Shown one piece after another: positions 1 to 16,609 of a stretch of 64,000 bases of DNA. The notes beneath the pieces are model-generated. The model saw nothing but the letters and a program-made list of their open reading frames with translations, was not told where the DNA came from and ran no database searches. This stretch comes from a virus. The DNA lies in the IMG/VR virus record IMGVR_UViG_3300010370_000030, positions 1 through 64,000 of that record; one strand, given 5' to 3'. Each line of letters begins with the position of its first letter. Position 1 is the stretch's first letter. Made by a program: the position numbers and the translations under genes.

Positions 1-288
1 AAAGAGCTAGAAGAACATGTCTGGTTCCAGCATAGAAGCTATATTGGTAGAGCAAGACTAATGAGAATGAAACCAAAGACATGCCTGACATATCATAAAG
101 ATGATAGTAGTATGAGATTACATATTCCTATAGTGACTAATGAAGGATGTTTCTTCATTAATAATGAGATAGTAGGTAAGATGCATGATACAGGAAGACT
201 TTACCTTTATGATGTGAAATCAAAGCATACAGCAGTTAATGCATCGAGAGAAGATAGAATTCATCTAGTCGTTAACTGCTATCAGTGA
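1..288 (+). CDS. AspH-type 2-oxoglutarate/Fe(II) oxygenase, C-terminal part (5' cut by window edge)
   Basis: The frame is open to the first base, so the N-terminus lies outside the window. The visible part has the aspartyl/asparaginyl beta-hydroxylase pattern (PF05118 type): a metal-binding HxD-like segment in LTYHKDD, the strand LHIPIVTNEG, and the distal His with a following Arg in KHTAVN and DRIHLVV. In this family two His and one Asp hold Fe(II) and the Arg holds 2-oxoglutarate. The same block recurs in genes near 18.0, 22.7, 25.2, 28.1 and 29.6 kb. Its TGA overlaps the next start codon (TGATG), so the two proteins are probably made together. The substrate cannot be inferred. Confidence 0.75.
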   Translation, partial: KELEEHVWFQHRSYIGRARLMRMKPKTCLTYHKDDSSMRLHIPIVTNEGCFFINNEIVGKMHDTGRLYLYDVKSKHTAVNASREDRIHLVVNCYQ

Positions 289-878
289 TGAATTACTTCC
301 CATATGAATTTAAATTCGTATCTATCCTTAGTGACTGGGCTTTGAGTGGGGATACTAAGTTTTTAACAAAGATCAACTCCTTCTTCCGTAAGCAGTGGAC
401 ACCGGGTCTGAGGTATGTTATGGAAAAGGTAGAGGAAGAATTATGTGAGTATGGCCTTCCTCGCGTTATATCAGTTAACGTGTTTAATAGACCAGCTCAT
501 GATGAGCAGATTATTCATATTGATTACTTAAAACTGTTGAACGGAACAGTTATTCCTACATCTGTTGCATACAACATACCCATTATAGGCAATGATTCCT
601 CAATAATGAGGTGGTGGGATGGAGAATATGAGTTGGTGTACTTCGAGAAAGAACAACCGCCCCCATTACCACGCATATCAACATATAGAATAAAATGGAT
701 TACCCAACCACTTGTTGTTGATGAGCTTTACATATCAAAACCACACTTTGTCAGAATAGACCAACCACATAACGTTCAAATAGGTAACCAGGATAGGATA
801 CTGATATCACTGAGGTTTGAATCAAAAGTGACCATAGAAGAAGCTAGTGAGTGCGTAGGATATACCGGTTACCTATAA
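288..878 (+). CDS. Putative 2OG-oxygenase/cupin-fold protein with an 'HxD...NIPI' pattern
   Basis: A 196-residue protein. I see HIDYL (HxD), a strand containing YNIPIIGND, then a tryptophan-containing segment, a second His in DQPHNVQIG, and an Arg-rich strand RILISLRF. This order fits a double-stranded beta-helix oxygenase. The 25.6-26.1 kb protein shares it (HIDRD, INIPI, FHDI, VIISLRS), and the 22.9-23.5 kb protein resembles it. A GTG lies just upstream at 285, but ATG 288 gives the tight TGATG overlap with the AspH-type gene before it. Whether it binds iron or is a degenerate partner is unknown. Confidence 0.6.
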   Translation: MNYFPYEFKFVSILSDWALSGDTKFLTKINSFFRKQWTPGLRYVMEKVEEELCEYGLPRVISVNVFNRPAHDEQIIHIDYLKLLNGTVIPTSVAYNIPIIGNDSSIMRWWDGEYELVYFEKEQPPPLPRISTYRIKWITQPLVVDELYISKPHFVRIDQPHNVQIGNQDRILISLRFESKVTIEEASECVGYTGYL

Positions 879-1061
879 TGTATAGAACCTGTTAGTCCCC
901 ATCTTGAGGACTTCGTTTACCTAGCTTTAGGATATTCTTTTTACTAAACCGTTTACCTATTATTTTACGTAGCGTAGTACAATCACAAAATAATTAATTT
1001 TTTACTAGTCTTGCGGAGTTACGTTACCTAAGCCTAGTAGCATAATAGAGTTTCAACGGAG

Positions 1062-1317
1062 TTTCCTGCATTGTAGGATAAGATATTTTGCATAGTAGGA
1101 AATGCGTTTAAATACGGGGGGTGGTGTGAGGTGATTTGGACCTCAGACTCTCTCAAAAGTCAACAGACCATCTCTCAATCACTTTCCCATAATACAAAAT
1201 CATTTCCCACAATACAAAATACTCCCCACCTCAACATTTCATACCTCAACTATTCACATCTAAACATTTCATACCTCAACAATCCCACAATACAAAATCA
1301 TTTCCTACAATGTAAAA
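1062..1317. repeat. Short repeats around a TTTCC-ACAAT motif
   Basis: Non-coding stretch. A motif like TTTCCYACAATRYAAAA occurs several times: tandem 20-base copies at 1181-1200 and 1201-1220, and further copies at 1283-1298 and 1299-1317. More GC-containing relatives at 1062-1080 and 1087-1104 and at about 2049-2066 include the palindrome TCCTACATTGTAGGA. A separate 18-base unit (AACATTTCATACCTCAAC) is repeated at about 1233 and 1265. The 879-1061 stretch before it shows no convincing gene. The motif could be an operator, but nothing here proves that. Confidence 0.6.
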
Positions 1318-1330
1318 AACCCCTCCAAAT

Positions 1331-1370
1331 AAAAAAAAAGAATCTAGCTTTTACACTAGATTCTTTTTAA
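1331..1370 (-). terminator. Intrinsic terminator of the C-free gene (possibly bidirectional)
   Basis: A 10-bp perfect stem (AAGAATCTAG with CTAGATTCTT, 1338-1347 and 1356-1365) and an 8-base loop. Read on the minus strand, it is followed by a run of T (the A run at 1331-1339), just after the minus-strand stop at 1384. A short T run on the + side could also stop transcription from the left. Confidence 0.8.
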
Positions 1371-1383
1371 TTATCAACCCCTT

Positions 1384-1773
1384 CTAATCATTCTTCACAT
1401 TCACAAACACACTATACTCCTCCTCACCATAACTCACACAATACATCCACTCCTCATTCCCACTCTCCCACAACATAAACCCATCATCATACCACTCATT
1501 CCAATCACAATCCTCATCATCACATTCCTCTCCAAACTCCTTCCTAATATTCTCCTTCCACTCCTCAAACCCCATATACTCATCACTCTTCCTAAACTCC
1601 TCTAACCCTCCCCTACATCCAAACACAAACTCATATACTCCATCCCCTCCCTCTTCAATAATCTCCACAATATCACTATACTCAAACCCATTATTCAAAT
1701 ACTCAATCTCACTCTTCATCTTCTCAATCATCACACTCACATTCACAACTTTATTAATCACAACTTTACTCAT
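1384..1773 (-). CDS. Strongly acidic protein of unknown function, encoded without cytosine
   Basis: A 129-residue protein with about 35 Asp/Glu against about 11 Lys/Arg. The coding strand has no C, so the protein lacks Pro, His, Gln, Thr and Ala entirely. I chose ATG 1773 because GGAG lies 6 bases before it; in-frame starts at 1785 and 1797 are possible. The gene has a TATAAT promoter upstream and an intrinsic terminator directly downstream, so it is a complete monocistronic unit opposite to its neighbours. I recognise no family. The charge resembles DNA-mimic proteins such as phage anti-restriction factors, but that is only a suggestion. Confidence 0.7.
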   Translation of the reverse strand: MSKVVINKVVNVSVMIEKMKSEIEYLNNGFEYSDIVEIIEEGGDGVYEFVFGCRGGLEEFRKSDEYMGFEEWKENIRKEFGEECDDEDCDWNEWYDDGFMLWESGNEEWMYCVSYGEEEYSVFVNVKND

Positions 1774-1817
1774 TTCTCTCTCCATTAAATTAAACACCTC
1801 TCAAACAACAACAACAT

Positions 1818-1844
1818 ATTATAACAAACACATTCTCTCATCAA
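1818..1844 (-). promoter_or_regulatory. Sigma-70-type promoter of the C-free gene
   Basis: On the minus strand a perfect -10 (TATAAT, 1823-1818) follows a TTGATG (1844-1839) at 15 bases, which is a short spacer. The expected start is near 1811, giving a leader of about 38 bases to ATG 1773. Confidence 0.6.
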
Positions 1845-1864
1845 CTCTCTATCAAAATACCCAA

Positions 1865-1902
1865 GTCAACAGTAAGCTCATTCAAAAGACCATACTGTTG
1901 AC
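1865..1902. repeat. 10-bp perfect inverted repeat (GTCAACAGTA / TACTGTTGAC)
   Basis: Arms at 1865-1874 and 1893-1902 with 18 bases between. The left arm begins exactly where the G-free block ends. The right arm contains TTGAC, which could act as a -35 for rightward transcription. An 8-base direct repeat (AAGCTCAT) lies in and after the loop. Confidence 0.7.
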
Positions 1903-1930
1903 AAGCTCATGCAAAGTATGAGACAATGAG

Positions 1931-1984
1931 TGGGGGACCGTTTGCGCGGGGTTGGCGGTGGCGCGCTCTCGCCGTCCATCCCCA
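1931..1984 (+). other. GC-rich segment able to fold; candidate small RNA or regulatory site
   Basis: TGGGG (1931-1935) pairs with CCCCA (1980-1984), GAC with GTC inside it, and an inner GGCG/CGCC hairpin closes the centre. The GC content is far above the flanks. There is no ORF. A TTGACA lies upstream at 1898-1903 but no good -10 follows. Identity unknown. The rest of 1865-2075 holds no gene that I can support. Confidence 0.35.
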
Positions 1985-2075
1985 GAGTGCCTGTTCGAAC
2001 GCATAGAGACATCATCCATAAAAAAAGAGACCAAGACAACAGACCACATATCCTACATTGTAGGAAATAAATATG

Positions 2076-2104
2076 TTGACTTCTGTTTTGGTCTATGAGA
2101 CAGT
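2076..2104 (+). promoter_or_regulatory. Weak relative of the early promoter
   Basis: TTGACT, then a 17-base spacer containing the GGTCTATG block seen in the other early promoters, but a poor -10 (GACAGT). The following leader (GTCGTTAAACAAAAGGA) matches the other early leaders. Confidence 0.5.
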
Positions 2105-2133
2105 GGCCTTGTCGTTAAACAAAAGGACTAATG

Positions 2134-2265
2134 ATGAAGGCAATCTACAAAGGGACGGAGTACTACATCATCTCTGTGCTTGGCGAATTGATCGAGATCG
2201 CCCCTACCAAACACGGTGCAGGGTCGTTCCTTGCGCATAAAGACTTTATCACCATTGTGGAGTAA
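2134..2265 (+). CDS. Small hypothetical early protein (43 aa)
   Basis: ATG 2134 has AGGA 6 bases upstream; ATG 2131 is an alternative. The product starts MKAIYKGTEYYIISVLGE. It is first in the early block and is followed by the next small gene two bases later. No family recognised. Confidence 0.6.
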   Translation: MKAIYKGTEYYIISVLGELIEIAPTKHGAGSFLAHKDFITIVE

Positions 2266-2267
2266 TC

Positions 2268-2441
2268 ATGAAGCGAAGCGCTATCAAGACTGGCATCTGG
2301 GGCGGCTTTGCCGCCTGGGTAGGAGTGCAGACATACAGGCTGATCACAGCCGTTGTCATGTTCATCCAATTGGTGTTCGGACTCTCTCTTGCTGCTGTAT
2401 CGCTCTGGATCGCCGTACACTACAATCTAATACCCAACTGA
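2268..2441 (+). CDS. Small membrane protein (57 aa)
   Basis: A short basic N-terminus (MKRSAIKTG) is followed by a hydrophobic stretch from about residue 24 to 51 that would cross the membrane once. The start lies two bases after the previous stop. The TGA is immediately followed by the TTGACC of the next promoter. Function unknown; early single-span phage proteins often act on the host envelope, but nothing specific is visible. Confidence 0.6.
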   Translation: MKRSAIKTGIWGGFAAWVGVQTYRLITAVVMFIQLVFGLSLAAVSLWIAVHYNLIPN

Positions 2442-2442
2442 G

Positions 2443-2471
2443 TTGACCTGGTATTTGGTCTGTGCTATACT
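2443..2471 (+). promoter_or_regulatory. Early sigma-70 promoter
   Basis: TTGACC, 17 bases, TATACT: close to consensus. It is the clearest member of a repeated family at 2.4-8.2 kb that shares GGTCT in the spacer and a TGACC/TGGCC block after the -10. Confidence 0.9.
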
Positions 2472-2498
2472 GACCTCACTGTTCAAATGGAGTTCCAA

Positions 2499-2855
2499 AT
2501 GAAAGTGTTCGTGTACTTCAACTTGCACAAGAAGTGCTGGTCTGTCAAAGCTCTCGAGGGTCCCCGCAAGGGCCGGGTGGTCCAGCATGCGAAGACTATC
2601 GCTCTGCATAACGTCACATTCAAGGTGTCCGAGGCTGGACGTCAACGAGTGCTGCGGGAGAAGAAGAAGAATGTGCATGCAGGAGCTGTTGGCACGCTGG
2701 ATGTGTACTCATATGAGCCCAGCTCTGTTGACGGTCTCGCCAAGGTCTCATACAATCCCTACAAGGCAGGACACTTCGTCAACAAAGAGACGAATGAGCC
2801 TGTCTACACCGCGCAGTATGCGTATCTCATTGACAAAACCGTGATGGTGAAATAA
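2499..2855 (+). CDS. Hypothetical early protein (118 aa)
   Basis: Start chosen at ATG 2499 because GGAG lies 6 bases before it; ATG 2487 lacks a site. The product is basic with aromatic strands near the N-terminus (MKVFVYFNLHKKCWSVKA) and resembles small single-domain phage proteins. The next gene starts directly at its stop, so they form one early transcript under the promoter at 2443. Function not recognised. Confidence 0.75.
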   Translation: MKVFVYFNLHKKCWSVKALEGPRKGRVVQHAKTIALHNVTFKVSEAGRQRVLREKKKNVHAGAVGTLDVYSYEPSSVDGLAKVSYNPYKAGHFVNKETNEPVYTAQYAYLIDKTVMVK

Positions 2856-3263
2856 ATGTTTGATTCCACTCGCTTCGCTTCCTACAACGACTACAACGAC
2901 TATCTCACCCGCAAGCTCGCTCATTACAATGAGTGGCTGGGAGATCCCAAGCGGACGTTCAAGAATGGTCCCTACCCAGGGTTCCCTGAGGACCTCGAGC
3001 ATGCAGCTCGTATCCAGTCCTTCAAGAAGGCAGCTGCTCAGGAGTTCGAGAAGAAGGCGAACCCTCCCATTGAGCGCAAGAAGAAGTCAAAGAAGGCAAA
3101 GAAGACTGCTGATGGTGGTCCTACCAAACAAGAGCGTGCTGTTGACATCTTCAAGCGTTTGAGTGGGGAGAAGGCTGCGACCATCCAAGCAATCCAGGAT
3201 GAGCTCGGCATGTCGCTCGCTGGTGCCACTACATACTTCTACAATGCAAAGAAGTTGGTCTGA
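2856..3263 (+). CDS. Hypothetical protein with PYPGFPE and GATTYFYNAKK segments (135 aa)
   Basis: Two parts joined by a Lys/Ala-rich linker (about residues 75-90). The N-terminal part (KLAHYNEWL...PYPGFPED) matches the 52-aa protein at 13016. The C-terminal part (about 95-135, ending GATTYFYNAKK) matches the end of the 5012 protein (GATTYYYNAKK), perhaps a small winged-helix-like DNA-binding unit. The start abuts the previous stop. The linkage of two separate small families suggests a fusion. Function unknown. Confidence 0.75.
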   Translation: MFDSTRFASYNDYNDYLTRKLAHYNEWLGDPKRTFKNGPYPGFPEDLEHAARIQSFKKAAAQEFEKKANPPIERKKKSKKAKKTADGGPTKQERAVDIFKRLSGEKAATIQAIQDELGMSLAGATTYFYNAKKLV

Positions 3264-3264
3264 G

Positions 3265-3293
3265 TTGACCTAAGGTCTGGTCTGTTGTAATAT
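3265..3293 (+). promoter_or_regulatory. Early sigma-70 promoter
   Basis: TTGACC, 17 bases, TAATAT. It starts one base after the preceding TGA stop (TGAGTTGACC). The spacer holds the near-palindrome GACCTAAGGTC. Confidence 0.85.
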
Positions 3294-3319
3294 GGCCAGA
3301 CCTTAACAAGGAGATAGAG

Positions 3320-3631
3320 ATGTCAGTTCAAATCAAATCTGTTGTTCGTCCTACTCAACTCGTTCGCAATGTAATGTACAAACACGAGAGTACACGTGGA
3401 CTCGTGTTCACAAACAAGTACAAAACTTGTAGAACTGTCAAGTGCTATTTTGATCCCAAAGTAGGTGCAGAGGAACTCATTTCAGACATCACATCAGTTC
3501 TACAAACAGCAGGTGTACAAGAGTTCAAAATCAAAACCCTAAAGTACACGGATCCATTTCTCTTGGGTCGTATGTGTTACACCTTTAATTCTCTCATTGT
3601 AAGAATCCCTTTCTCAGAACAAGCTCAATAA
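3320..3631 (+). CDS. Hypothetical early protein (103 aa)
   Basis: Led by its own promoter and AAGGAG. Starts MSVQIKSVVRPTQLV. No membrane segment or motif that I can assign. The codon usage is more A-rich than its neighbours. Single-gene unit between two near-identical promoters. Confidence 0.7.
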   Translation: MSVQIKSVVRPTQLVRNVMYKHESTRGLVFTNKYKTCRTVKCYFDPKVGAEELISDITSVLQTAGVQEFKIKTLKYTDPFLLGRMCYTFNSLIVRIPFSEQAQ

Positions 3632-3639
3632 ACAAATAG

Positions 3640-3668
3640 TTGACCTAAGGTCTGGTCTGTAGTAATAT
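3640..3668 (+). promoter_or_regulatory. Early sigma-70 promoter
   Basis: TTGACC, 17 bases, TAATAT. Almost a copy of the promoter at 3265, including the spacer and the GGCCAGACCTTAA after the -10. Confidence 0.85.
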
Positions 3669-3695
3669 GGCCAGACCTTAAATAAGGAGATTGAG

Positions 3696-3923
3696 ATGTA
3701 CGTTCAAGTCTACATTCCTACTGTGATTCTCGAGATGGTTGAAGAGGCCTTTGAAGGGCTCTTTGGCCGCAGGCCTACCACAAAGGAGCTGCGGGACTTC
3801 TTCGCAGCAGACGTAGCAACACTGTACGATCAAGGCATTCACGAAGCTCCTACAAACGAGCTCGAGGACTCCCTCCATCACTTCTTCTATCACAAATTCA
3901 ACACTCCTCCGGAGGCTGCATAA
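3696..3923 (+). CDS. Hypothetical early protein (75 aa)
   Basis: AAGGAG upstream. Predicted mostly helical and acidic (MYVQVYIPTVILEMVEEAFE). First of three genes whose stops and starts overlap (TAATG, then ATGA). Function unknown. Confidence 0.7.
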   Translation: MYVQVYIPTVILEMVEEAFEGLFGRRPTTKELRDFFAADVATLYDQGIHEAPTNELEDSLHHFFYHKFNTPPEAA

Positions 3924-4060
3924 TGAGCTGGGCACGCAAGATGGCTGACAAGCGGAAGATCAATCGTGTATTGGTCCGCTGCAAGAATGTCCGACACAAC
4001 GACAAGCGTACTAAGGTAATGGAGCGTGAGCTCCGCAAAGAAGAGCGAGGTGTAGCATGA
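3923..4060 (+). CDS. Small basic protein (45 aa)
   Basis: Starts inside the previous stop (TAATG). Very rich in Lys and Arg (MSWARKMADKRKINRVLVR). It may bind nucleic acid by charge alone. No family recognised. Confidence 0.55.
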   Translation: MSWARKMADKRKINRVLVRCKNVRHNDKRTKVMERELRKEERGVA

Positions 4061-4218
4061 GCCGTGCGAAAGAACTCCTGGAAGACATCAAAGAAGATAT
4101 CCGCGATGGGTTCCTCTCCGACAAAAGCATTGCACGGAAGTATGATGTGCCTATTGAATGGGTGTACATTGCGTGGGACCAGCTCTGTCAAGAAGAACAT
4201 AATTGTGAGTTGACCTGA
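4057..4218 (+). CDS. Small helix-turn-helix-like protein (53 aa)
   Basis: Starts inside the previous stop (ATGA). The segment SDKSIARKYDVPIEWVYIAW has the spacing of a helix-turn-helix (a helix, a turn at the glycine-equivalent Asp, then a recognition helix). The last codons overlap the -35 of the next promoter, so the gene and that promoter share bases. Possibly a regulator of the early block; inference only. Confidence 0.6.
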   Translation: MSRAKELLEDIKEDIRDGFLSDKSIARKYDVPIEWVYIAWDQLCQEEHNCELT

Positions 4219-4238
4219 TACCTGGTCTATAGTATGAT
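4210..4238 (+). promoter_or_regulatory. Early sigma-70 promoter
   Basis: TTGACC, 17 bases, TATGAT. Its -35 lies within the last codons of the preceding gene. Confidence 0.85.
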
Positions 4239-4266
4239 GGCCTCACGTTAAACAAAGGAGTTAGTA

Positions 4267-4497
4267 ATGAGCCAAGCACAATTCTTCTACGAAGTCAATC
4301 GGGAGCAAGCAGAGATGGAAGATGTCAACGCCGAGCTGCAGATCCTTGCAGACGAAGTGCAGCAGGAAGTAATCGAAGAGCAGTTCCGTCGGTTCCTGCA
4401 GGAAGTATTCGGAGCTCTCTACGAGGAGATCGATCTGGGTTGTGAGTTCGACCTCATCCAGGATATGGAAGCTGGTTGGGACCTTCATAAGGCCTGA
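4267..4497 (+). CDS. Acidic helical early protein (76 aa)
   Basis: AAAGGAG upstream. Strongly acidic and predicted helical/coiled (many Glu and Gln; EVQQEVIEEQFRRFLQEVFG). Single-gene unit between promoters. Function unknown. Confidence 0.7.
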   Translation: MSQAQFFYEVNREQAEMEDVNAELQILADEVQQEVIEEQFRRFLQEVFGALYEEIDLGCEFDLIQDMEAGWDLHKA

Positions 4498-4498
4498 G

Positions 4499-4527
4499 TT
4501 GACCAAAGGGCTGGTCTAGTATAGACT
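4499..4527 (+). promoter_or_regulatory. Early sigma-70 promoter
   Basis: TTGACC, 17 bases, TAGACT. It directly follows a TGA stop (TGAGTTGACC). Confidence 0.75.
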
Positions 4528-4552
4528 GGCCCTACTTTAACAGGAGATGGTA

Positions 4553-4954
4553 ATGAAAGCTGGAACGTACTACATCGGTGACCTCTGCTATGTGTTCAAC
4601 ATGGACGACTGGAATGATGTGTGCAACATCACGATGGATGGACGTGAGGGTGAGTTTGAGCTGCCAGATGGTCGCAAGTTCGCACTCTACAACACTGCAT
4701 ATGGTGATGGAGAGTACAACGACCAGTTTGGCAACAAATACCCTGTCGACTCTGGCACTATCGGATGTGTGTTGTGGAAAGACACTTCTCGCTATGAGTA
4801 CATCCTTGCTGATGTGGGTGCTGTTGTTGACATGAAAGAGGATTTCGATACCTGCTCAGATGGGAACGGTCTCATCAAAATCGGTAGCACGACTATCGAC
4901 ACTGCCGAAGAATGGCTCGATCAGTATGATGAAGAGAATGAAGAATGGAGTTGA
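4553..4954 (+). CDS. Hypothetical early protein, GTYYIGDLCYV type (133 aa)
   Basis: ATG 4553 has GGAG 6 bases before it; ATG 4547 is too close to that site. The opening MKAGTYYIGDLCYV and later DSGTIGCVLWKD recall a family of small proteins that I have seen in many phages and bacteria, with no known function. Acidic. Own promoter. Confidence 0.75.
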   Translation: MKAGTYYIGDLCYVFNMDDWNDVCNITMDGREGEFELPDGRKFALYNTAYGDGEYNDQFGNKYPVDSGTIGCVLWKDTSRYEYILADVGAVVDMKEDFDTCSDGNGLIKIGSTTIDTAEEWLDQYDEENEEWS

Positions 4955-4979
4955 CCTGAAATCTGGTCTATGGTATGCT
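4951..4979 (+). promoter_or_regulatory. Early sigma-70 promoter
   Basis: TTGACC, 17 bases, TATGCT. The TGA stop of the preceding gene is inside the -35 hexamer. Confidence 0.8.
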
Positions 4980-5011
4980 GGCCTTACGTTAATCAATTAA
5001 AGGAGTTTCAA

Positions 5012-5320
5012 ATGAACCAAGTCTTCTCAATGCTCACCCAGTCCCTCATCGATGGCAAAGATGCTGCTGCTGCAGTAGTTGCTCCTGCAAAGAAGAAAGC
5101 TGTCCGGGCTAAGCCTGCAGCGAAGAAGGATCTTGCAGAGCAGGTGGTCGAAGTAGTAAAGCTAAAGGCTCGCCCAGGCACGAAGGCTGATCTCGCTCTG
5201 GAGATCGTGCAGAAGGCAGGCACTCGTAAAGAAGCGATCGCTGAGATCATGGATGTGTGTGGTATGACGGTGCAGGGAGCAACGACGTACTACTACAATG
5301 CAAAGAAGAAGCTGGCCTAA
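5012..5320 (+). CDS. Ala/Lys-rich protein with a C-terminal GATTYYYNAKK domain (102 aa)
   Basis: ATG 5012 follows AAAGGAG. The first half is Ala/Lys-rich and probably disordered, with a histone-H1-like composition. The last ~45 residues (KADLALEIVQKAG...GATTYYYNAKK) match the end of the 2856 protein and may be a small DNA-binding fold. A nucleoid-binding role would fit, but is inferred from composition. Confidence 0.7.
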   Translation: MNQVFSMLTQSLIDGKDAAAAVVAPAKKKAVRAKPAAKKDLAEQVVEVVKLKARPGTKADLALEIVQKAGTRKEAIAEIMDVCGMTVQGATTYYYNAKKKLA

Positions 5321-5321
5321 G

Positions 5322-5357
5322 TTGACAACAAGGCTGGCCTACAACAGGCCAGCCTTT
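5322..5357 (+). terminator. Hairpin in place of an early promoter; terminator-like
   Basis: A perfect -35 (TTGACA, 5322-5327) sits where the other promoters are, but the -10 position holds an 8-bp perfect hairpin (GGCTGGCC / GGCCAGCC, 5332-5339 and 5347-5354) followed by TTT. It looks like an intrinsic terminator that grew from the same repeat family. Confidence 0.55.
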
Positions 5358-5379
5358 CATTCATCATAAGGAGTCTATT

Positions 5380-5682
5380 ATGTTCGCAATGCCTAACACT
5401 CGTCAAGTTCGTCGTATCATTCGTGAAGCTGCTCGTGATATCGGTGTCACGTTCGAGCGTCATTCGTGGACAGACAAAGTGGATGTTGAGAATCCGAAGC
5501 TGCGTCAGGTCTGCTTGAGTCCTCTCTATCTGGGACCTGAGCCTCACAGCAAGTATGACGAGCTGATCAACATTATCCGCAATCGTCTTGCTCAACACAA
5601 CCTCCTCATCATTCAAGGGTTGTCTGATCATCTCTATGTTCGGTTCTATGGCGAGATCGCCCCTCGCAAAAAAAAGGTCTGA
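5380..5682 (+). CDS. Hypothetical early protein (100 aa)
   Basis: AAGGAG upstream. Basic at both ends (RQVRRIIREAARDIG; PRKKKV). No assigned family. The only early gene here that is preceded by a hairpin rather than a clear promoter, so it may depend on read-through. Confidence 0.7.
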   Translation: MFAMPNTRQVRRIIREAARDIGVTFERHSWTDKVDVENPKLRQVCLSPLYLGPEPHSKYDELINIIRNRLAQHNLLIIQGLSDHLYVRFYGEIAPRKKKV

Positions 5683-5688
5683 CCTGAG

Positions 5689-5717
5689 TTGACCGTGAGG
5701 CTGGTCTATGGGATACT
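5689..5717 (+). promoter_or_regulatory. Early sigma-70 promoter
   Basis: TTGACC, 17 bases, GATACT. Confidence 0.8.
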
Positions 5718-5745
5718 GGCCTCACGTTAAACAAAGGAGTTAGTG

Positions 5746-5943
5746 ATGTACATCAATCTTCAGCCGAGCAAGACCTACAAGACCCGCGAGAACGCCATCA
5801 AGGCAGCGATGACGCAGGTCTGCAGCAAGCGTGACGATCTGCGGTTCATCATCAGCATCACGGAAGACGGTCGCTTCTTCCCAGTGTTCCTTGGTGTCAA
5901 TGCTCTGCCGGTGATCCACATCGGATTCTGTGTGGCAGCCTAA
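5746..5943 (+). CDS. Hypothetical early protein (65 aa)
   Basis: ATG 5746 is preceded by AAAGGAG; a GTG at 5743 is less likely. Starts MYINLQPSKTYKTRENAIKA. Compact alpha/beta-looking protein of a small-phage-protein type; no function recognised. Confidence 0.7.
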   Translation: MYINLQPSKTYKTRENAIKAAMTQVCSKRDDLRFIISITEDGRFFPVFLGVNALPVIHIGFCVAA

Positions 5944-5946
5944 GAG

Positions 5947-5975
5947 TTGACCAGGCCAGTGTTCTGAGGGATACT
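5947..5975 (+). promoter_or_regulatory. Early sigma-70 promoter
   Basis: TTGACC, 17 bases, GATACT, although the spacer differs from its relatives. Confidence 0.75.
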
Positions 5976-6003
5976 GGCCTCACTGTTAAACAAGGAGCTA
6001 ATG

Positions 6004-6243
6004 ATGAGTGCAAACGAGATCAAAGTCTACGGCATGTCGGTCGAGCGCATCCAGGAAGAGTATGTCAACAGCATCACGGCTCAGTGCTGCGGCCTGGAGA
6101 TGGTTGTGGCTGGCATCCTGAGCGATGTGCAAGAGGTTGTGCCGTTTGACCATGTCAGGCCCGAGCAAATCCGTCAGCAGCTGAACATCGCTAAGTACCT
6201 CCTTACGCTGATGGCTCGGCAACGTCGTGAGCAGGTAGCATGA
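6004..6243 (+). CDS. Hypothetical early protein (79 aa)
   Basis: ATG 6004 has AGGAG 6 bases upstream; ATG 6001 is closer and less likely. Mostly helical sequence (MSANEIKVYGMSVERIQEEY). First of three linked genes; its TGA overlaps the next ATG. Confidence 0.7.
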   Translation: MSANEIKVYGMSVERIQEEYVNSITAQCCGLEMVVAGILSDVQEVVPFDHVRPEQIRQQLNIAKYLLTLMARQRREQVA

Positions 6244-6425
6244 AGTACTCAGAGATGTCCTTCGTCGCCTTCCTGCAGGCGGCGGAGGATTATGCAGAAG
6301 CAGAGGGTATGCTGGCGGAGTTCACGACTACGTACCAGTACTACAGGGTGTACTGCAGTGTGAAGGACAGCACACTGCTTGCCCTCAACGATGTGTTCGG
6401 CAGAGAATGTCCTCTCATTCATTAA
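6240..6425 (+). CDS. Hypothetical early protein (61 aa)
   Basis: Starts within the previous stop (ATGA). Opens MKYSEMSFVAFLQAAEDYAE. No function recognised. Confidence 0.6.
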   Translation: MKYSEMSFVAFLQAAEDYAEAEGMLAEFTTTYQYYRVYCSVKDSTLLALNDVFGRECPLIH

Positions 6426-6435
6426 GGAGTTCAAC

Positions 6436-6795
6436 ATGAGTACTCGTGCATTCATCGGCATGCAACAGAGCAACGGCAAACTGATTGGCAACTACTGTCA
6501 CTATGATGGATACCCGTCGCACGTCGGTAAGCAGCTTGTTGCGTACTACAGCACCGCTGAGCATGCCATCGCTCTGATCGGTGGTCCGCAGATCCGCTGC
6601 TTTGTTGAAGGGGAAGTCGAGCGCTTCAAGGACAGCGATATTGGCACGGAGACATTTGAGAGTGTGGATGAGGTACTCAACAGCGGCTACGACTACTGCT
6701 ACCTCTTCTCCAAGGAGGAGCAGTGCTGGAAGTGTTTCGGTCGGGATTATGGCCCCTACGCATCCATCATCGTCTCCAAAGAGATCCCGCGTTGA
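6436..6795 (+). CDS. Conserved phage protein, MSTRAFIG...YCHYDGYP family (119 aa)
   Basis: ATG 6436 is preceded by AAGGAG. The N-terminus MSTRAFIGMQQSNGKLIGNY followed by CHYDGYP is typical of a widespread family of phage proteins of unknown function. The gene closes the three-gene unit, and the next promoter begins inside its stop region. Confidence 0.8.
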   Translation: MSTRAFIGMQQSNGKLIGNYCHYDGYPSHVGKQLVAYYSTAEHAIALIGGPQIRCFVEGEVERFKDSDIGTETFESVDEVLNSGYDYCYLFSKEEQCWKCFGRDYGPYASIIVSKEIPR

Positions 6796-6820
6796 CCTGT
6801 TACCTGGTCTAGGGGATACT
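6792..6820 (+). promoter_or_regulatory. Early sigma-70 promoter
   Basis: TTGACC, 17 bases, GATACT. Confidence 0.8.
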
Positions 6821-6849
6821 CTCCCTACTGTCAAACAAAGGAGCTGATC

Positions 6850-7065
6850 ATGCAACAACAGAGCTGGGTGAAAGATGGCGAGCGTATCCGTGGGAACTAC
6901 CATGGGAAGGTTGTGGAGGGTGTTGTGCATGACAGCCGAGTAAAGTACGGCGGCATGGTACAGTACAGAGTCATGCTTGACAACACTGTTCGCCTGCCAT
7001 GGCGCTCTGAGCCAGTCAGCGTAGTCTTGCTCGACGAGAGCGAAGTGCTCCCCAGCGAAGTTTGA
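6850..7065 (+). CDS. Hypothetical early protein (71 aa)
   Basis: AAAGGAG upstream. Beta-rich sequence (IRGNYHGKVVEGVVHDSRVKY) suggesting a small barrel such as an SH3-like or Tudor-like fold; that is only an impression. Last gene of the GC-rich early block. Confidence 0.65.
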   Translation: MQQQSWVKDGERIRGNYHGKVVEGVVHDSRVKYGGMVQYRVMLDNTVRLPWRSEPVSVVLLDESEVLPSEV

Positions 7066-7071
7066 GTGCCT

Positions 7072-7210
7072 GCAGGGGCCCCTGCGGCCCCCTGCAGAGT
7101 CGTACTGCTCCCCTGCAGCCCGCCGGGGGCCCGCCTTTTTTAACGCGCAGGTACCCGTACCCGGGTTCCAGTACTTGGCTGTGTGTCTCCAAAGGGGGGC
7201 CCGCCTTGTT
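7072..7210. terminator. GC-rich palindromes with T runs at the end of the early block
   Basis: Contains a 14-base perfect palindrome (GCAGGGGCCCCTGC, 7072-7085) and two copies of GGGGGCCCGCCTT (7125-7137 and 7195-7207). The first copy runs into seven T, the second into TTGTTTT. These probably terminate early transcripts. No gene fits in 7066-7281. GC content falls sharply after this point. Confidence 0.6.
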
Positions 7211-7281
7211 TTATCCGAATCTGAAAAAAGCTGTCTCAAAAAATTTTTTTGGCAAAAAATCGCGAAAAGGAGCGTCTGCAA

Positions 7282-7926
7282 ATGATCTGGGCTATCCGAA
7301 TTACATTCTTCTTATTGGCGCCTCTCATCCTCTATTGGCAGTATAGAGACGTGCAGAATCTTTTTGCGAGTGTAGAGGCACTCTATGAGAATCAGATTGC
7401 TATCGTACAGGGACAGTTAGCAATTACATCAGAGATCAAGGAGTTGCGAGCAGAAGTATTGCAGCAACCAGTGCCACAGGCGCCTGCACCTAGCATTAAG
7501 CCTCCTTTGCAGGTGATCCGTACAGATCATCAATTGAAGCATGACCCACTTGACATCTTCTGTATGGCAAAGAACATATATCATGAAGCTGCACATGAGC
7601 CTGAGATTGGTCGCTATGCAGTTGCGCAGGTAACACTTAACCGCAAAATGAATCCTAAGTATCCAAAGAAGATTTGTGATGTGATCCTGGATCCATATCA
7701 GTTTAGTTGGGCAAACGATAAGAAGATTCGCTGGACAAATCCTAAAGGTCCTGCATGGGAGGAATCCAAGCGTATTGCATATAATGTAGTAGTAGAGGGG
7801 TATAGAGTGAAAGGACTAGAGCATGGCCTCTTCTATCATGCAGACTATGTCAGTCCTAAATGGCGCGATAACAATGCTCATATCACTCAGATCGGTAGAC
7901 ATATCTTCTATAGCCGGGCACTTTGA
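7282..7926 (+). CDS. SleB-like cell-wall hydrolase, membrane-anchored (214 aa)
   Basis: Hydrolase_2 (SleB/CwlJ) type muralytic enzyme that would cut peptidoglycan. Residues 3-20 form a hydrophobic anchor, followed by a coiled/Pro-rich linker (to ~75) and the catalytic domain (~90-214) with NIYHEAAHE (Glu102 the likely catalytic residue), the QFSW segment and a C-terminal HITQIGRHIFY. ATG 7282 is used because AAGGAG precedes it; an upstream TTG lacks a site. Probably exported and acting in the periplasm during lysis. A second member lies at 21758. Confidence 0.8.
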   Translation: MIWAIRITFFLLAPLILYWQYRDVQNLFASVEALYENQIAIVQGQLAITSEIKELRAEVLQQPVPQAPAPSIKPPLQVIRTDHQLKHDPLDIFCMAKNIYHEAAHEPEIGRYAVAQVTLNRKMNPKYPKKICDVILDPYQFSWANDKKIRWTNPKGPAWEESKRIAYNVVVEGYRVKGLEHGLFYHADYVSPKWRDNNAHITQIGRHIFYSRAL

Positions 7927-7938
7927 AGGAGCGCTGAT

Positions 7939-8163
7939 ATGAACAAACGAATTCTAGAGCTTGCTGAACAGGCTGGGATTACGACTAACTTGGATACTGA
8001 TTACTTTGAAAAAGACGTCAATAAATGGGTTGACTATTATTCAGAAAAGTTCGCCGAACTAATCATCCAGGAATGCATTGACAACCTACTTTGGCATGGG
8101 CATGATGAGGCTGCAAGCCAGTTGGAATGGCTACGAGGAAATCGTTTCGGAATTAAAAAGTAA
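7939..8163 (+). CDS. Small phage protein, 'NKRI-ELA...FAELI-EC' family (74 aa)
   Basis: AAGGAG upstream. Member of a family repeated here at 10063, 10720 and 11060: an N-terminal MNKRILELAEQAG, a central FAELIIQECID and a short end. Common in T4-like phages; function unknown. Confidence 0.75.
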   Translation: MNKRILELAEQAGITTNLDTDYFEKDVNKWVDYYSEKFAELIIQECIDNLLWHGHDEAASQLEWLRGNRFGIKK

Positions 8164-8168
8164 TTATG

Positions 8169-8198
8169 TTGACTCTTTAGCTGGTCTCGTTGTATAGT
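8169..8198 (+). promoter_or_regulatory. Early-type sigma-70 promoter, last of the series
   Basis: TTGACT, 18 bases, TATAGT, with CTGGTCTCG in the spacer and a GTCGTTAATGAGGAG leader like the others. It lies in the AT-richer region outside the main early block. Confidence 0.75.
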
Positions 8199-8227
8199 GC
8201 TCTTGTCGTTAATGAGGAGTTTAAATC

Positions 8228-8731
8228 ATGGCTAAGCACTACATCACTTCTTCCGACATCAAAGTTACACCACACATCTGGCAATCACATGCCTCTCGCT
8301 ATGCATCTAGATCAGATCGCGCTCAGAGCGAACGAGCTATCAATATTGTAGAGACAGCTCTCCCCATCCTCAAAAAAGAACTTGACCTTCCTCGCGATAT
8401 CAAGATCCGTATTGCCAGCGTCAAAGGCAACTACCTTGGCTGGTACATTGAACGTGCACACTTGGCTGTACTTGATTACAAAACAACTGGTCGTAATGTA
8501 TTGGAGATCCTCGCACATGAATTGGTTCACGCAGAACAATACCACCAAGGACGCCTTGCACAACGGTGGCGCAAAGGTAAATATGTCACTTTCTGGAAAG
8601 GCGATGCCGTCCGTGAAAGCTATCGCAACCGCCCACACGAACAAGAGGCATTTAAACGACAGGTTGAACTCGCAGACCTGGTCGTCCAACAACTCGGCAC
8701 GGACTTCATGGTTCTAAAGGTGAAAGCATGA
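8228..8731 (+). CDS. Zinc metalloprotease-like protein with HELVH motif (167 aa)
   Basis: Around residues 97-101 is HELVH (HExxH zinc-binding helix) followed by AEQYHQG, and a further Glu in HEQEAF could be the third ligand. This is the pattern of small SprT-like or related phage metallopeptidases. Driven by the promoter at 8169 with GAGGAG before ATG. The target is unknown. The next gene overlaps its stop (ATGA). Confidence 0.7.
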   Translation: MAKHYITSSDIKVTPHIWQSHASRYASRSDRAQSERAINIVETALPILKKELDLPRDIKIRIASVKGNYLGWYIERAHLAVLDYKTTGRNVLEILAHELVHAEQYHQGRLAQRWRKGKYVTFWKGDAVRESYRNRPHEQEAFKRQVELADLVVQQLGTDFMVLKVKA

Positions 8732-8892
8732 GACACTACCTTATCTGCAGTTGTGGTAACCATCACGACGTCGATGATGTTGAATTCATTAACATCGAAG
8801 AAGGACCACGCGGTGAAGACATTATGACATATAAATGTCCTGTAACTGATAATTACGCTCAATCTTTTGTATATAAAGGAGTAACTGAATGA
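8728..8892 (+). CDS. Small Cys-containing protein, possible zinc site (54 aa)
   Basis: Starts in the previous stop (ATGA). CSCGNHHD near the N-terminus and YKCP at about 35-38 may form a small zinc site. The next gene overlaps its stop (AATGA). Function unknown. Confidence 0.6.
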   Translation: MRHYLICSCGNHHDVDDVEFINIEEGPRGEDIMTYKCPVTDNYAQSFVYKGVTE

Positions 8893-9098
8893 ACATCCAT
8901 ATCCTCGCTCTCACTAAAATGGCTAAGATCCTTGGCATCGCTGCACTCGTAGGTGCTATCGTGGGATTTGTAACAAATCACCTTACAGCCGAAGAATTGA
9001 TGACCTATCTTTCTTTTGGCTTCATCGGCTTCTTGATCGTTATGATGTATGCTATTTTTTATGACGAAGCCAAGCATGAGATTGAGAAGAAGAAATGA
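8889..9098 (+). CDS. Small membrane protein (69 aa)
   Basis: Two hydrophobic stretches (about residues 11-30 and 40-58) separated by a short loop, with a charged C-terminus (HEIEKKK). The start overlaps the previous stop. Size and topology would fit a holin-like protein, but no family is recognised. Confidence 0.65.
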   Translation: MNIHILALTKMAKILGIAALVGAIVGFVTNHLTAEELMTYLSFGFIGFLIVMMYAIFYDEAKHEIEKKK

Positions 9099-9310
9099 CC
9101 TACGTTACTGTCAGTGCTAACATTGATGTGGACATGGACGAAATCGACACGGCCGACCTTGTCGATGAACTAAGGAAACGAGACATCCGACTTCCTAGTA
9201 TGGATCATGTCGAAGAGCTAAAAGTTATCTACCACAAGCGTAGACAAGGACTAGATTATCAGAGAGAATTGGATCAGTTCATGTATAATGTTTTGGGAGT
9301 GACTGTATAA
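9095..9310 (+). CDS. Hypothetical protein (71 aa)
   Basis: ATGA overlap with the gene before. Acidic start (MTYVTVSANIDVDMDEIDTA), then a basic helical half. Its last A is also the first base of the next ATG. Function unknown. Confidence 0.65.
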   Translation: MTYVTVSANIDVDMDEIDTADLVDELRKRDIRLPSMDHVEELKVIYHKRRQGLDYQRELDQFMYNVLGVTV

Positions 9311-9697
9311 TGGGAACCAACTACTACGTTGCATCTAATCACTGTGAATGCTGCGACCGATATGATGAAGAATACCACATCGGTAAATCTTCTGGTGGTT
9401 GGGCATTTTCTTTTCATGGATATCGCGCTGAACGGCTTGTAAGCTGGCAAGCATGGAAAGAATTTCTCAAAGATAAAGTTATCATGGATGAATACGGAGA
9501 ACGTATCGACTACGATTGGTTCGTTGAATATATTGAAGGACCAAAAGCACCCAGTTACACAAATACTCATGGGCGAAAGAACCTTCAACACAATGATGAA
9601 GGGAAAACCTGACAAGTCTGGATATACTTGGTTTAATCCTGAATACGATTGGGATGATCCAGAAGGATACGCTTTCTGTAGTAGAGAATTTTCATGA
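9310..9697 (+). pseudogene. MGTNYYV...CCDR...HIGKSS family gene, split by a frameshift
   Basis: The first frame (9310-9612) opens with MGTNYYVASNHCECCDRYDE and HIGKSSGGWAFSF, the hallmark of a common phage protein family of unknown function, with a likely zinc site. It then loses the family pattern after VEYIEG. The +1 frame continues it (GERTFNTMMKG, DDPEGYAFCSREFS) to a TGA at 9697, which overlaps the next gene's ATG in the normal way. One extra base near 9540-9560 would explain this. It may be a real mutation, a sequencing error or a programmed shift. Confidence 0.7.
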
Positions 9698-9897
9698 ATG
9701 AAGATCAACTAATCTTTAGTGCATGGCGTGATTCAGAAGCATACCAAGTACCCATGACAGAAGAAGGCGTAAAACTTGCAGGGAGGAGATATGAGTCTTT
9801 TCGCAGAGGCTGGGAATACCATAAGTTCTATCTAGAACATGGTGATGTCTATATGAAGGATTACCTTGAACATGGACCGAGGTGTGAAGATGAATGA
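9694..9897 (+). CDS. Hypothetical protein (67 aa)
   Basis: Starts in the second-frame stop of the preceding gene (ATGA). Helical sequence (MNEDQLIFSAWRDSEAYQVP) with a GRRYESFRRGWEY segment. Resembles small phage proteins of unknown function. Confidence 0.65.
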   Translation: MNEDQLIFSAWRDSEAYQVPMTEEGVKLAGRRYESFRRGWEYHKFYLEHGDVYMKDYLEHGPRCEDE

Positions 9898-10066
9898 TAA
9901 TTGGTGGGTCTTTCCCGTAGCAGGTTTAACACTTGCGGCTATTGTTTTGCTAATTGTTATTGGTGGTAAGTTGGAAAAGATGCGTATTTACAACAACTGC
10001 CTTGACAAGAATGGCACATTGCTGTATACTGATGCTGTTAAACATTGCAAAGAGATTGTAAAGTGA
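9890..10066 (+). CDS. Small membrane protein (58 aa)
   Basis: One transmembrane segment (about residues 6-25, VFPVAGLTLAAIVLLIVIGG), then a short soluble tail with two Cys. ATG 9890 overlaps the end of the gene before it by 8 bases. Function unknown. Confidence 0.6.
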   Translation: MNDNWWVFPVAGLTLAAIVLLIVIGGKLEKMRIYNNCLDKNGTLLYTDAVKHCKEIVK

Positions 10067-10242
10067 ACAAACGAATTCGAGAACTTGCTGAAGAATCCCA
10101 TAATGAATTCTACAATGTTCATATTGATTTAGAATTGTTCGCCGAGTTGATTGTTAGGGAATGTTGTGATGCTGTAAACGATGGAAGTAAATTAGGTGAT
10201 TGGTATAATATGCGAATTAAAGAACATTTTGGAGTTAAATGA
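10063..10242 (+). CDS. 'NKRI-ELA...FAELIV-EC...HFGVK' family protein (59 aa)
   Basis: Start taken as GTG 10063, which overlaps the previous TGA and gives the family N-terminus NKRIRELAEE. Contains FAELIVRECCD and ends RIKEHFGVK. Paralogue of genes at 7939, 10720 and 11060. Confidence 0.7.
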   Translation: MNKRIRELAEESHNEFYNVHIDLELFAELIVRECCDAVNDGSKLGDWYNMRIKEHFGVK

Positions 10243-10451
10243 TGCGTTTTGTCACACCAAAAAAACTTTATTACGTGCTACTATACAAACCGAGAACCTT
10301 TCCCGACGGTGGTTGGTCTAACTTTATTGCTACACCATATCTCGGTAAAGCACGATACTACGCTAAGAAACTAAAACGACCACATCGTCAAATTGATGTT
10401 CGGGTGCGTGGTAAGCGTAAAGCGTATGTTTTGAAAGGAAGTTGGCTATGA
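10239..10451 (+). CDS. Basic hypothetical protein (70 aa)
   Basis: Two start codons (10239, 10242) overlap the previous stop. Many Lys, Arg and Tyr (KKLYYVLLYKPRTF; RVRGKRKAYVLKG). It may bind nucleic acid; not assigned. Confidence 0.6.
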   Translation: MMRFVTPKKLYYVLLYKPRTFPDGGWSNFIATPYLGKARYYAKKLKRPHRQIDVRVRGKRKAYVLKGSWL

Positions 10452-10723
10452 ACTTCATTAAGTGCCATAAATGTGGGCGTGAAGAACCTGCATTTGATTA
10501 TGCACATATCTGTGGTCCGGTAGAGGTAAAACAACCTAACAAACGAATCGAACTAACAAGACCTGACGGAACACCTTACCTAACACTTAGAAAAGATAGT
10601 CGGCTTGCCTATATTCAAATTCATGATTATGATTACTTCGGTAATCCTGTAGAGTTTAATTTTGATGTGAGAGCAATTCCTATGTTGATCGATGGGCTAC
10701 TTCAACTGAGAGATCAATCATGA
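10448..10723 (+). CDS. Hypothetical protein with N-terminal zinc-ribbon-like motif (91 aa)
   Basis: ATG 10448 overlaps the previous stop. CHKCG (residues 6-10) and HICG (about 21-24) form a likely Zn knuckle; the rest is beta-rich. Function unknown. Confidence 0.6.
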   Translation: MNFIKCHKCGREEPAFDYAHICGPVEVKQPNKRIELTRPDGTPYLTLRKDSRLAYIQIHDYDYFGNPVEFNFDVRAIPMLIDGLLQLRDQS

Positions 10724-10926
10724 ATGACCGAATTGAAGAACTAGCACAATGTAATGAACGCATTCTAAACTTCTTTCAAACTGGTCCCATTCAACGTGCA
10801 GCCATTGAAGAATTCGCCGAGTTGATTGTTCAAGAATGTATTGACACAGTATTAGATTCGAGTGTAGAATATACTACGCGACCACAAGTTGCAATTGAGA
10901 TAAAAGAACATTTTGGAGTTGAATGA
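10720..10926 (+). CDS. 'NDRI-ELA...FAELIV-EC...HFGVE' family protein (68 aa)
   Basis: Overlaps the previous stop (ATGA). MNDRIEELAQ at the start, FAELIVQECID in the middle, IKEHFGVE at the end. Third copy of this family. Confidence 0.75.
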   Translation: MNDRIEELAQCNERILNFFQTGPIQRAAIEEFAELIVQECIDTVLDSSVEYTTRPQVAIEIKEHFGVE

Positions 10927-11063
10927 TGGATGATACTGTTTGGTTTTTTGTTGGTTGGATTGTAGGCATTCTCCTCGGCTATGTAATGTGGGCACCTGAA
11001 ACCCGGTTCAAGCAAAATTTTATTGATGGATTAACACTGCGATTTCTTTGGGGAAAGCGATGA
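10923..11063 (+). CDS. Small membrane protein (46 aa)
   Basis: ATG 10923 (or 10926) overlaps the previous stop. One hydrophobic segment (TVWFFVGWIVGILLGYVMW) and a basic tail. The next gene overlaps its stop. Function unknown. Confidence 0.6.
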   Translation: MMDDTVWFFVGWIVGILLGYVMWAPETRFKQNFIDGLTLRFLWGKR

Positions 11064-11245
11064 ATGAACGAATCCAAGAACTTGCCCGAGAGGCTGGATT
11101 TTATGCCAATTCAGATATAGAAAAATTTGAAAAGTTCGCCGAGTTAATTGTTAAGGAATGTGCTAAACTTGCAGACAAAGAATCTTGTTATCCCTATTCA
11201 ACTTATGGGCTGTTAATTAGAGAACAATTTGGAGTTAAAGAATGA
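11060..11245 (+). CDS. 'NERI-ELA...FAELIV-EC...FGVKE' family protein (61 aa)
   Basis: ATG 11060 overlaps the previous TGA. MNERIQELAREAG, FAELIVKECAK and REQFGVKE mark the fourth copy of the family seen at 7939, 10063 and 10720. Confidence 0.75.
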   Translation: MNERIQELAREAGFYANSDIEKFEKFAELIVKECAKLADKESCYPYSTYGLLIREQFGVKE

Positions 11246-11628
11246 GCCAAGTAGTAAGAGCAATTGAAGCACATGACACCGGTGAACGAAAACTTATTAA
11301 AGAAAGTTTCTCTACACTGTTTCAAGATGTATTCAATATCAAGTCACATACTCAAGACCTAAGAGGAACTGAAGGTATTGCTAAACAATATCGTATCAGT
11401 GTCATAATTGGTTCTCAAGTCCATGTAAGTGACCTTGATCTTCTTCAAGAAGGTGGTGATGCACTAGAAGAAGCAATTCATCGAACCAAGCGCCAAGTTA
11501 TTGAAGCCATCTATGGTGAGTTTCGACAAGACCTTATGTTGACTGAACGTGCATTGTATGACCGTGATTTTCAGAAAGCACGAGACTATCTAAGGATTCT
11601 AGAACAGAAGATGTTTGGGATTGATTAA
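11242..11628 (+). CDS. Hypothetical protein (128 aa)
   Basis: ATGA overlap with the gene before. Beta strands in the middle (YRISVIIGSQVHVSD) and a helical C-terminus (EAIHRTKRQVIEAIYGEFRQ). The pattern recalls a structural-fragment-like phage protein, but I cannot assign it. Confidence 0.65.
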   Translation: MSQVVRAIEAHDTGERKLIKESFSTLFQDVFNIKSHTQDLRGTEGIAKQYRISVIIGSQVHVSDLDLLQEGGDALEEAIHRTKRQVIEAIYGEFRQDLMLTERALYDRDFQKARDYLRILEQKMFGID

Positions 11629-11891
11629 TGAGTGATATCTGGAAACGCCGTGGTGAGATTGATCGTGCCAGGTCATTAAGGATGGAAGAACTTATGGCCG
11701 ATTACGATAATAATGTTTACTACCCTGCTAAGAAACAATTGCTTCGTGATTGTTTTCTTGAAGGGCACCGCGGAGGTAAGTATCATGACAATGGCTTTGG
11801 TTGGTCGTGGTTCTATTGTGGCAAGTGTGGCGGCCGGTATGATATTAGTGGTCCAGATGGAGAAACCAAATTGGCAGATGGAGCAAAATGA
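11628..11891 (+). CDS. Hypothetical protein with a C-terminal CxxC (87 aa)
   Basis: Starts on the last base of the previous stop. Charged helical first half, then WSWFYCGKCGGRYD near residues 65-75, probably half a zinc site. Function unknown. Confidence 0.65.
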   Translation: MSDIWKRRGEIDRARSLRMEELMADYDNNVYYPAKKQLLRDCFLEGHRGGKYHDNGFGWSWFYCGKCGGRYDISGPDGETKLADGAK

Positions 11892-12205
11892 TGAAACTAA
11901 GTGAATTGCACCGATTGGTGAATGCACATTACCACGAAGAACGAATGGTACGTGAAGATCCAGAAGTTGTTATTCAAATTAAACTCCCATACTCTACTGT
12001 AGGTGCTCATCCAACAGTTAAGATCAAACACATTGGTATGGGGTTCGATTGGGATGCAGGTAAGTTCATTATCACACCAGAAGAAAACCTAACACCTGCT
12101 GACCGTGACTTTGCTGAACAGATGCAAAAGATGCAAGATGATTTGGGTTGGGCTAGGTATGAGAATCGTAATCTCAAAGCAGAAATTAAAAAGCTAAAAA
12201 AATGA
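11888..12205 (+). CDS. Hypothetical protein with C-terminal coiled coil (105 aa)
   Basis: ATG 11888 or 11891, both at the previous stop. A beta-rich core (VVIQIKLPYSTVGAHPTVKI) resembles small phage proteins of unknown function. The end (NRNLKAEIKKLKK) is a coiled coil. Confidence 0.65.
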   Translation: MMKLSELHRLVNAHYHEERMVREDPEVVIQIKLPYSTVGAHPTVKIKHIGMGFDWDAGKFIITPEENLTPADRDFAEQMQKMQDDLGWARYENRNLKAEIKKLKK

Positions 12206-12576
12206 AATCATATAAAGAAGAAGTAGTAAATCAAGCAATCCTTGGTTTAGTTCAAGGTGGCTTTTCGGAAGCAGAATCGCTTCGTATGTTGCTTGAACGA
12301 ATTTATGAGTGTGGCTATAACGAACACTCGAGGCAACTAACCGAATCTGTTGCTAAAAAGCAGCCTATTTACATTGTTGCTGGCACATACGAACAGTTTA
12401 GAACATATCATCGAGAAAAAGGATTAGATTGTTGGTTTTGTTACGTGTCAGGACCAGATACACTGAGAGGCATTATAAATCCGCAGGTAGAATTTGTTGG
12501 CACGTGGCTAGACCGTTCTGATATCCATGATATTATTACACAGGTGAAAGTATCTGCATGGGGAAGAAAAGAATGA
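12202..12576 (+). CDS. Hypothetical protein (124 aa)
   Basis: ATGA overlap. The N-terminal helix pair is followed by QPIYIVAGTYEQFRTYHREK, the pattern of a nucleotide-binding-like small domain seen in phage proteins, without any catalytic motif that I know. Function unknown. Confidence 0.65.
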   Translation: MKSYKEEVVNQAILGLVQGGFSEAESLRMLLERIYECGYNEHSRQLTESVAKKQPIYIVAGTYEQFRTYHREKGLDCWFCYVSGPDTLRGIINPQVEFVGTWLDRSDIHDIITQVKVSAWGRKE

Positions 12577-15145: not shown

Positions 15146-15153
15146 GGTGTACC

Positions 15154-16179: not shown

Positions 16180-16184
16180 CCTGT

Positions 16185-16565: not shown

Positions 16566-16590
16566 AGCACATTCCTATCAATGGTTGTGG

Positions 16591-16598: not shown

Positions 16599-16609
16599 AA
16601 GGAGAGAAA

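Follow-up and report, generated by a model that had tools for sequence, protein, structure and literature searches.

The region from 2076 to 8227 of this viral genome contains twelve promoter cassettes, half of which have an inverted repeat around the -10 box. We propose that it is a hyperplastic stretch of PeSL-type (promoter-early stem-loop) cassettes in a T4-like phage and that the stem acts on the transcript that reads through from upstream (with a probability of roughly 80%). The window that we analyzed covers positions 1 to 64,000 of an IMG/VR virus record of 81,807 bases; the motif searches covered the whole record (81.8 kb).

The twelve sites are all on the + strand, and we identify each by the first T of its TTGAC. 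The sequence-only reading had described twelve sites of the form TTGACC-17-TATACT, with spacers that share GGTCT and with GGCC downstream of the -10. The twelve sites are real, but the exact form occurs only at 2443. The -35 box begins with TTGAC at 12 of 12 sites (TTGACC at nine), and the spacer is 17 bases in 11 copies and 18 bases at 8169. The -10 boxes are TATACT, TAATAT (twice), TATGAT, TAGACT, TATGCT, GATACT (three times), TATAGT, and GACAGT; 11 of the 12 copies have an A at position 2 and a T at position 6, and site 5322 has no -10 (CAGGCC is in its place). As in PeSLs, these appear to be host-like sigma-70 promoters. GGTCT is present in 10 of the 12 spacers (it is missing at 5322 and 5947), and GGCC follows the -10 in most copies, but not in all. 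At every site, the distance from TTGAC to the start codon (ATG) is nearly fixed, at 54-61 bases. With a weight matrix for the motif, ten sites score 43-68 and site 5322 scores 16, while the maximum in reversed sequence is 2.7; site 8169 is weaker (a score of 20 with a shorter matrix). Searching the rest of the record with this motif model, as had been suggested, found no sites beyond the twelve, so the array is confined to one region. The sole match on the other strand (5364) is the palindrome of site 5322 itself.

Six of the cassettes have a strong stem. Cassettes 3 (3265..3319) and 4 (3640..3695) are nearly identical and share the stem TAAGGTCTGGTC/GGCCAGACCTTA, which in cassette 3 surrounds a -10 of TAATAT; cassette 3 would serve the gene at 3320-3631 and cassette 4 would serve 3696-3923, 3923-4060, and 4057-4218. 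Cassette 6 (4499..4552), ahead of 4553-4954, has a 12-pair stem (AGGGCTGGTCTA/TAGACTGGCCCT). Cassette 8 (5322..5379), upstream of 5380-5682, has a perfect 11-pair stem (AAGGCTGGCCT/AGGCCAGCCTT) and no -10, and is probably a stem-loop-only derivative. Cassette 9 (5689..5745; stem CGTGAGGCTGGT/ACTGGCCTCACG) would serve 5746-5943, and cassette 10 (5947..6003; stem AGGCCAGTGTTC/GGATACTGGCCT) would serve 6004-6243, 6240-6425, and 6436-6795.

The remaining cassettes are without a strong stem. Cassette 1 (2076..2133) has a -35 of TTGACT and a weak -10 (GACAGT), followed by the leader and the ribosome binding site, and would serve 2134-2265 and 2268-2441; cassette 2 (2443..2498), with the exact form, would serve 2499-2855 and 2856-3263. 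Cassette 5 (4210..4266; -10 TATGAT) precedes 4267-4497 and cassette 7 (4951..5011; -10 TATGCT) precedes 5012-5320. Cassette 11 (6792..6849; -10 GATACT) has a weak, shifted stem (TAGGG/CCCTA) and precedes 6850-7065. Cassette 12 (8169..8227) is outlying, with a -10 of TATAGT and no stem, and precedes 8228-8731. As the sequence-only reading had noted, several cassettes adjoin or overlap the end of the upstream gene: those at 2443, 3265, and 4499 start one base past a TGA and that at 5322 one base past a TAA, and those at 4210, 4951, and 6792 contain the upstream gene's stop.

What that reading missed is that the GGTCT block in the spacer and the GGCC block after the -10 belong to the two arms of an inverted repeat, or dyad, with the -10 between them. 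Six of the 12 copies (3265, 3640, 4499, 5322, 5689, and 5947) have a stem of 11-12 pairs, so that a stem-loop is combined with a promoter, its arms flanking the -10, as in PeSLs. The ungapped stem score is bimodal: these six sites score 28-29 and the other six score 10-15. Among background windows outside of the region, just 18 of 20,960 (0.09%) reach a stem score of 26. If we fold the 48 bases from TTGAC, the six stemmed sites have energies of -18.6 to -21.7 kcal/mol, as compared to -16.0 kcal/mol for the 1% quantile of random 48-mers from the same genome. The arm sequences vary among the copies (AAGGTCTGG/CCAGACCTT, AGGGCTGGTCTA/TAGACTGGCCCT, GTGAGGC/GCCTCAC, and AGGCCAGT/ACTGGCCT), and the arms co-vary. 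When arms were swapped between copies, only 2-3 of 100,000 permutations were as stable as the cognate arms (10-16 of 100,000 if one near-identical copy was removed). Because true partners pair better than swapped ones, GGTCT and GGCC appear to be largely the inner parts of the two stem arms.

This bears on the idea, raised by the sequence-only reading, that conservation of the spacer points to a shared regulator. In its explicit form, GACC-N8-GGTC together with GGCC would be an operator, and a phage or host DNA-binding protein between the -35 and the -10 would co-regulate the array. The six copies without a strong stem still have TGGTCT, and in several copies GACC-N8-GGTC is a palindrome in its own right. 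But the sequence of a fixed operator would be conserved, and here the arms vary while the pairing holds, including by G-U pairs, which make sense only in RNA. Also, GGTC is missing from copies 5322 and 5947, and leftover TGGTCT would also be expected if the stem-less copies descend from a stemmed ancestor. We consider the operator improbable. A common regulator is unnecessary, as in half of the copies a co-varying stem has this spacer block as its left arm; a binding protein may act at the six stem-less copies that retain TGGTCT.

The repeated unit seems to be a regulatory cassette (about 57 bases) and not whole genes, because the elements are alike and the sequences on either side are not. 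Mean pairwise identity is 61% for the element and 60% for the ribosome binding site stretch, and it is at chance level both over the initial 60 bases of the genes (28%) and over the 60 bases upstream of the element (26.5%). This contrast gives good support to the earlier description of promoter-leader-ORF cassettes. We rejected duplication of whole genes, as a C-terminal domain in common was seen only for the genes at 2856 and 5012. This domain of the proteins encoded by 2856-3263 and 5012-5320 ends in GATTYFYNAKK (45% identity over 44 amino acids), and they are the only paralogous pair in the array. The protein encoded by 2499-2855 belongs to the family of gp82 from mycobacteriophage L5 (PF25735, E = 3.5e-44), here in a T4-like phage; its gene has about 70% DNA similarity to cluster A mycobacteriophages, and the similarity begins at about the ATG, which is the edge of the cassette.

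A related strain, L125 (contig IMGVR_UViG_3300042521_002517), matches the window at 95.8% identity from 1.9 to 7.9 kb, and all 11 of the cassettes that its contig covers are present. Past 7931, L125 and the window are unrelated, as far as the contig extends. L125 has 204 extra bases, with a gene for a 62-amino-acid protein, between promoter 6 and the gene at 4553. This insert is flanked at both ends by an 8-base repeat, TTTAACAG, that lies in the leader of cassette 6, so a gene appears to have been gained or lost there between the strains. The earlier proposal of spread by duplication is thus supported for the regulatory unit, both by the identity contrast and by the extra gene at a leader. 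PeSLs are associated with gene gain, loss, or exchange, and our only strain comparison gives a single event, an indel at an 8-base leader repeat rather than recombination of one complete cassette with another. In the copies at 4499 and 5322, L125 differs mostly in the loop and the stem is retained. In cassette 8, the loop of L125 is TGTTGTA and that of the window is the reverse complement, TACAACA; L125 has a poor -10 (TAGGCT) there, which the window copy has lost. This flip of the loop with loss of the -10 (window 5322-5360, L125 11036-11075) looks like the result of inversion or template switching at a palindrome.

In the explanation that we prefer, each cassette would combine a host sigma-70 promoter, a short AT-rich leader (of the GTTAAACAAAGGAG type), and a ribosome binding site, and would drive one to three small genes. 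The predicted transcription start lies about 35 bases past TTGAC, which places it at the right arm's end or close to it; the cassette's own mRNA should therefore be unable to fold the stem. RNA that reads through from the upstream gene would contain both arms and would form a hairpin of 11-12 pairs just past the upstream stop codon; we predict 10.6-12.3 expected arm-arm pairs in the read-through RNA of the six stemmed copies. The hairpin would most likely end the upstream transcript, attenuate it, or mark it for cleavage, so that each gene's level would be set by its own promoter. Early expression is suggested by the host-like sigma-70 boxes and by analogy to T4-type phages. The shared cassettes may also be recombination points for swapping small host-interaction genes. 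A point against this explanation is that half of the copies (6 of 12) lack a strong stem.

In PeSLs, the stem-loop reportedly terminates transcription effectively. Here the six stems are strong, but none has a U-tract that passes a terminator-rule scan, so simple rules do not predict intrinsic termination, and the stem may be a mark instead of an intrinsic terminator. For instance, cleavage at the stem could distinguish read-through from locally started mRNA and leave both with the same leader; we view this variant as possible but tentative. We consider it unlikely that these are ordinary strong promoters in tandem, spread by duplication, whose dyads are functionless by-products of template switching at quasi-palindromes. 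The loop-centered differences from L125 at 4499 and 5322, and above all the reverse-complemented loop of 5322, are what such switching or an inversion would leave behind, but by-products would not explain six stems of one length class, in the same place, that are retained across strains, or why the distant phage RB49 has the same architecture. We rejected a role for the hairpin in translation control, by hiding the Shine-Dalgarno site of the read-through RNA, as very improbable: predicted pairing of this site rises in the read-through RNA for 3640, but across the twelve sites there is no consistent predicted change in its accessibility between own and read-through RNA, and the stem usually stops short of it.

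The phage is T4-like, both by its T4-type baseplate proteins and by its gene order (tRNAs, small genes, ssDNA-binding protein, and reversed lysozyme), which matches the T4-like phage DLP6. The baseplate proteins have their nearest named relatives in Sinorhizobium phages phiM12 and phiM19, Caulobacter phage Cr30, and Stenotrophomonas phage DLP6; a nucleotide search of positions 1-20000 against phages gave no match. At 21031-21473, among the phage's 13 tRNA genes, is a phage-encoded permuted tmRNA of the betaproteobacterial family (tag ANEERFALAA), so a betaproteobacterial host is likely. The cassettes recur between the small genes of a variable region in this genome, as PeSLs do in T4-like phages. 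GC content at the third codon position is mostly 0.52-0.77 for the array genes (0.36 for one) and 0.30-0.51 for the genes after the array. Two other features lie beside or within the array. A C-rich, strongly skewed stretch at 1119-1884, with a 137-amino-acid ORF on the other strand, is missing from L125, which has about 380 unrelated bases there instead. Directly 3' of the gene at 6850-7065 is a very GC-rich palindromic stretch (7066-7200; CCTGCAGGGGCCCCTGCGGCC...), which precedes a lysis-type hydrolase gene (7282-7926). The T4 late-promoter box (TATAAATA) is uninformative, as it is too rare and is present on both strands.

We looked for the array in other phages. Scanning viral contigs for GAGTTGACC-N8-TGGTCT gave 25 contigs with one match each, none of which scores with the full matrix, and in 12 related contigs a search allowing two mismatches gave no more matches than a backwards control. 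When we queried viral contigs with three array genes, the array was found only in the L125 contig, and a search for the core pattern likewise found only this contig besides our record. A detector of stemmed promoters reports five in the array (six in the whole record) versus 1.15 expected, and 10 in RB49 versus 1.74 expected, with no clear excess in the stretches that we sampled from DLP6, ACP17, an Aeromonas phage, and five viral contigs related to ours. As the sampled stretches of the relatives have no elements above chance, we see no evidence of descent shared with the RB49 elements; the genome seems to have the RB49 architecture, without the RB49 sequence, and this architecture is absent from the sampled members of its branch. 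This suggests that the PeSL design arose or was acquired within this T4-like branch. Twelve cassettes, of which six have a stem and six do not, in a single genome and a close strain, make a compact natural set for testing the role of the PeSL stem, and the genes behind them are candidate early host-takeover genes.

PeSLs were reportedly described, by Arbiol in 2010 and Comeau in 2014, in the T4-type phages RB49/phi1, PST, and nt-1. Both studies are cited in PMC4503421. We consider our array to be PeSL-type cassettes and a further instance of the design already known from coliphage RB49. As a positive control, we applied the same stem and arm-permutation tests to 19 intergenic promoters of RB49. 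About 11 of the 19 have a stem around the -10 (for example, TTGACATACAAGGGAGATTCTCTATAATGGGAGTCTCCCTT) and the rest are stem-less; no permutation of 100,000 matched the cognate arms; and, by eye, most of these stems also lack a U-tract. Both sets have a host-like promoter, stem arms flanking the -10, and a leader with a ribosome binding site, between small genes in variable regions. In both, the arms vary among copies and stemmed and stem-less copies are mixed, and there is a gene indel between strains at a cassette. What they have in common appears to be architecture only: we saw no sequence similarity beyond the promoter boxes. Unlike in RB49, the stems here are 11-12 pairs (mostly 7-10 in RB49), the loops are 3-11 bases (mostly 6), the -35 is mostly TTGACC, the -10s are weaker, and twelve cassettes are packed into about 6 kb, in another phage branch with a probable betaproteobacterial host.

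The early promoters of T4 conform closely to the UP, -35, TGn, and -10 elements (PMC2988021). Like them, our promoters are of the host sigma-70 type, with extra conserved positions, and many precede small non-essential genes; unlike them, the extra conservation is in the spacer and post -10 blocks that form the dyad, and the -10s are weaker. Cluster K mycobacteriophages have SAS elements (a 13-bp sequence, GGGATAGGAGCCC, at the translation start) and ESAS elements (17-bp inverted repeats), and the authors found that pairing as RNA is generally not supported for the ESAS arms (PMC3203893). Like our cassettes, these elements are repeated, include an inverted repeat, and lie immediately ahead of the start codons of many small, unrelated genes. 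We rejected membership in this family because GGGATAGGAGCCC is missing from all twelve elements and their arms co-vary as stems. SAS lies at the translation start itself, there is no sequence similarity, and the arms here are predicted to pair as RNA.
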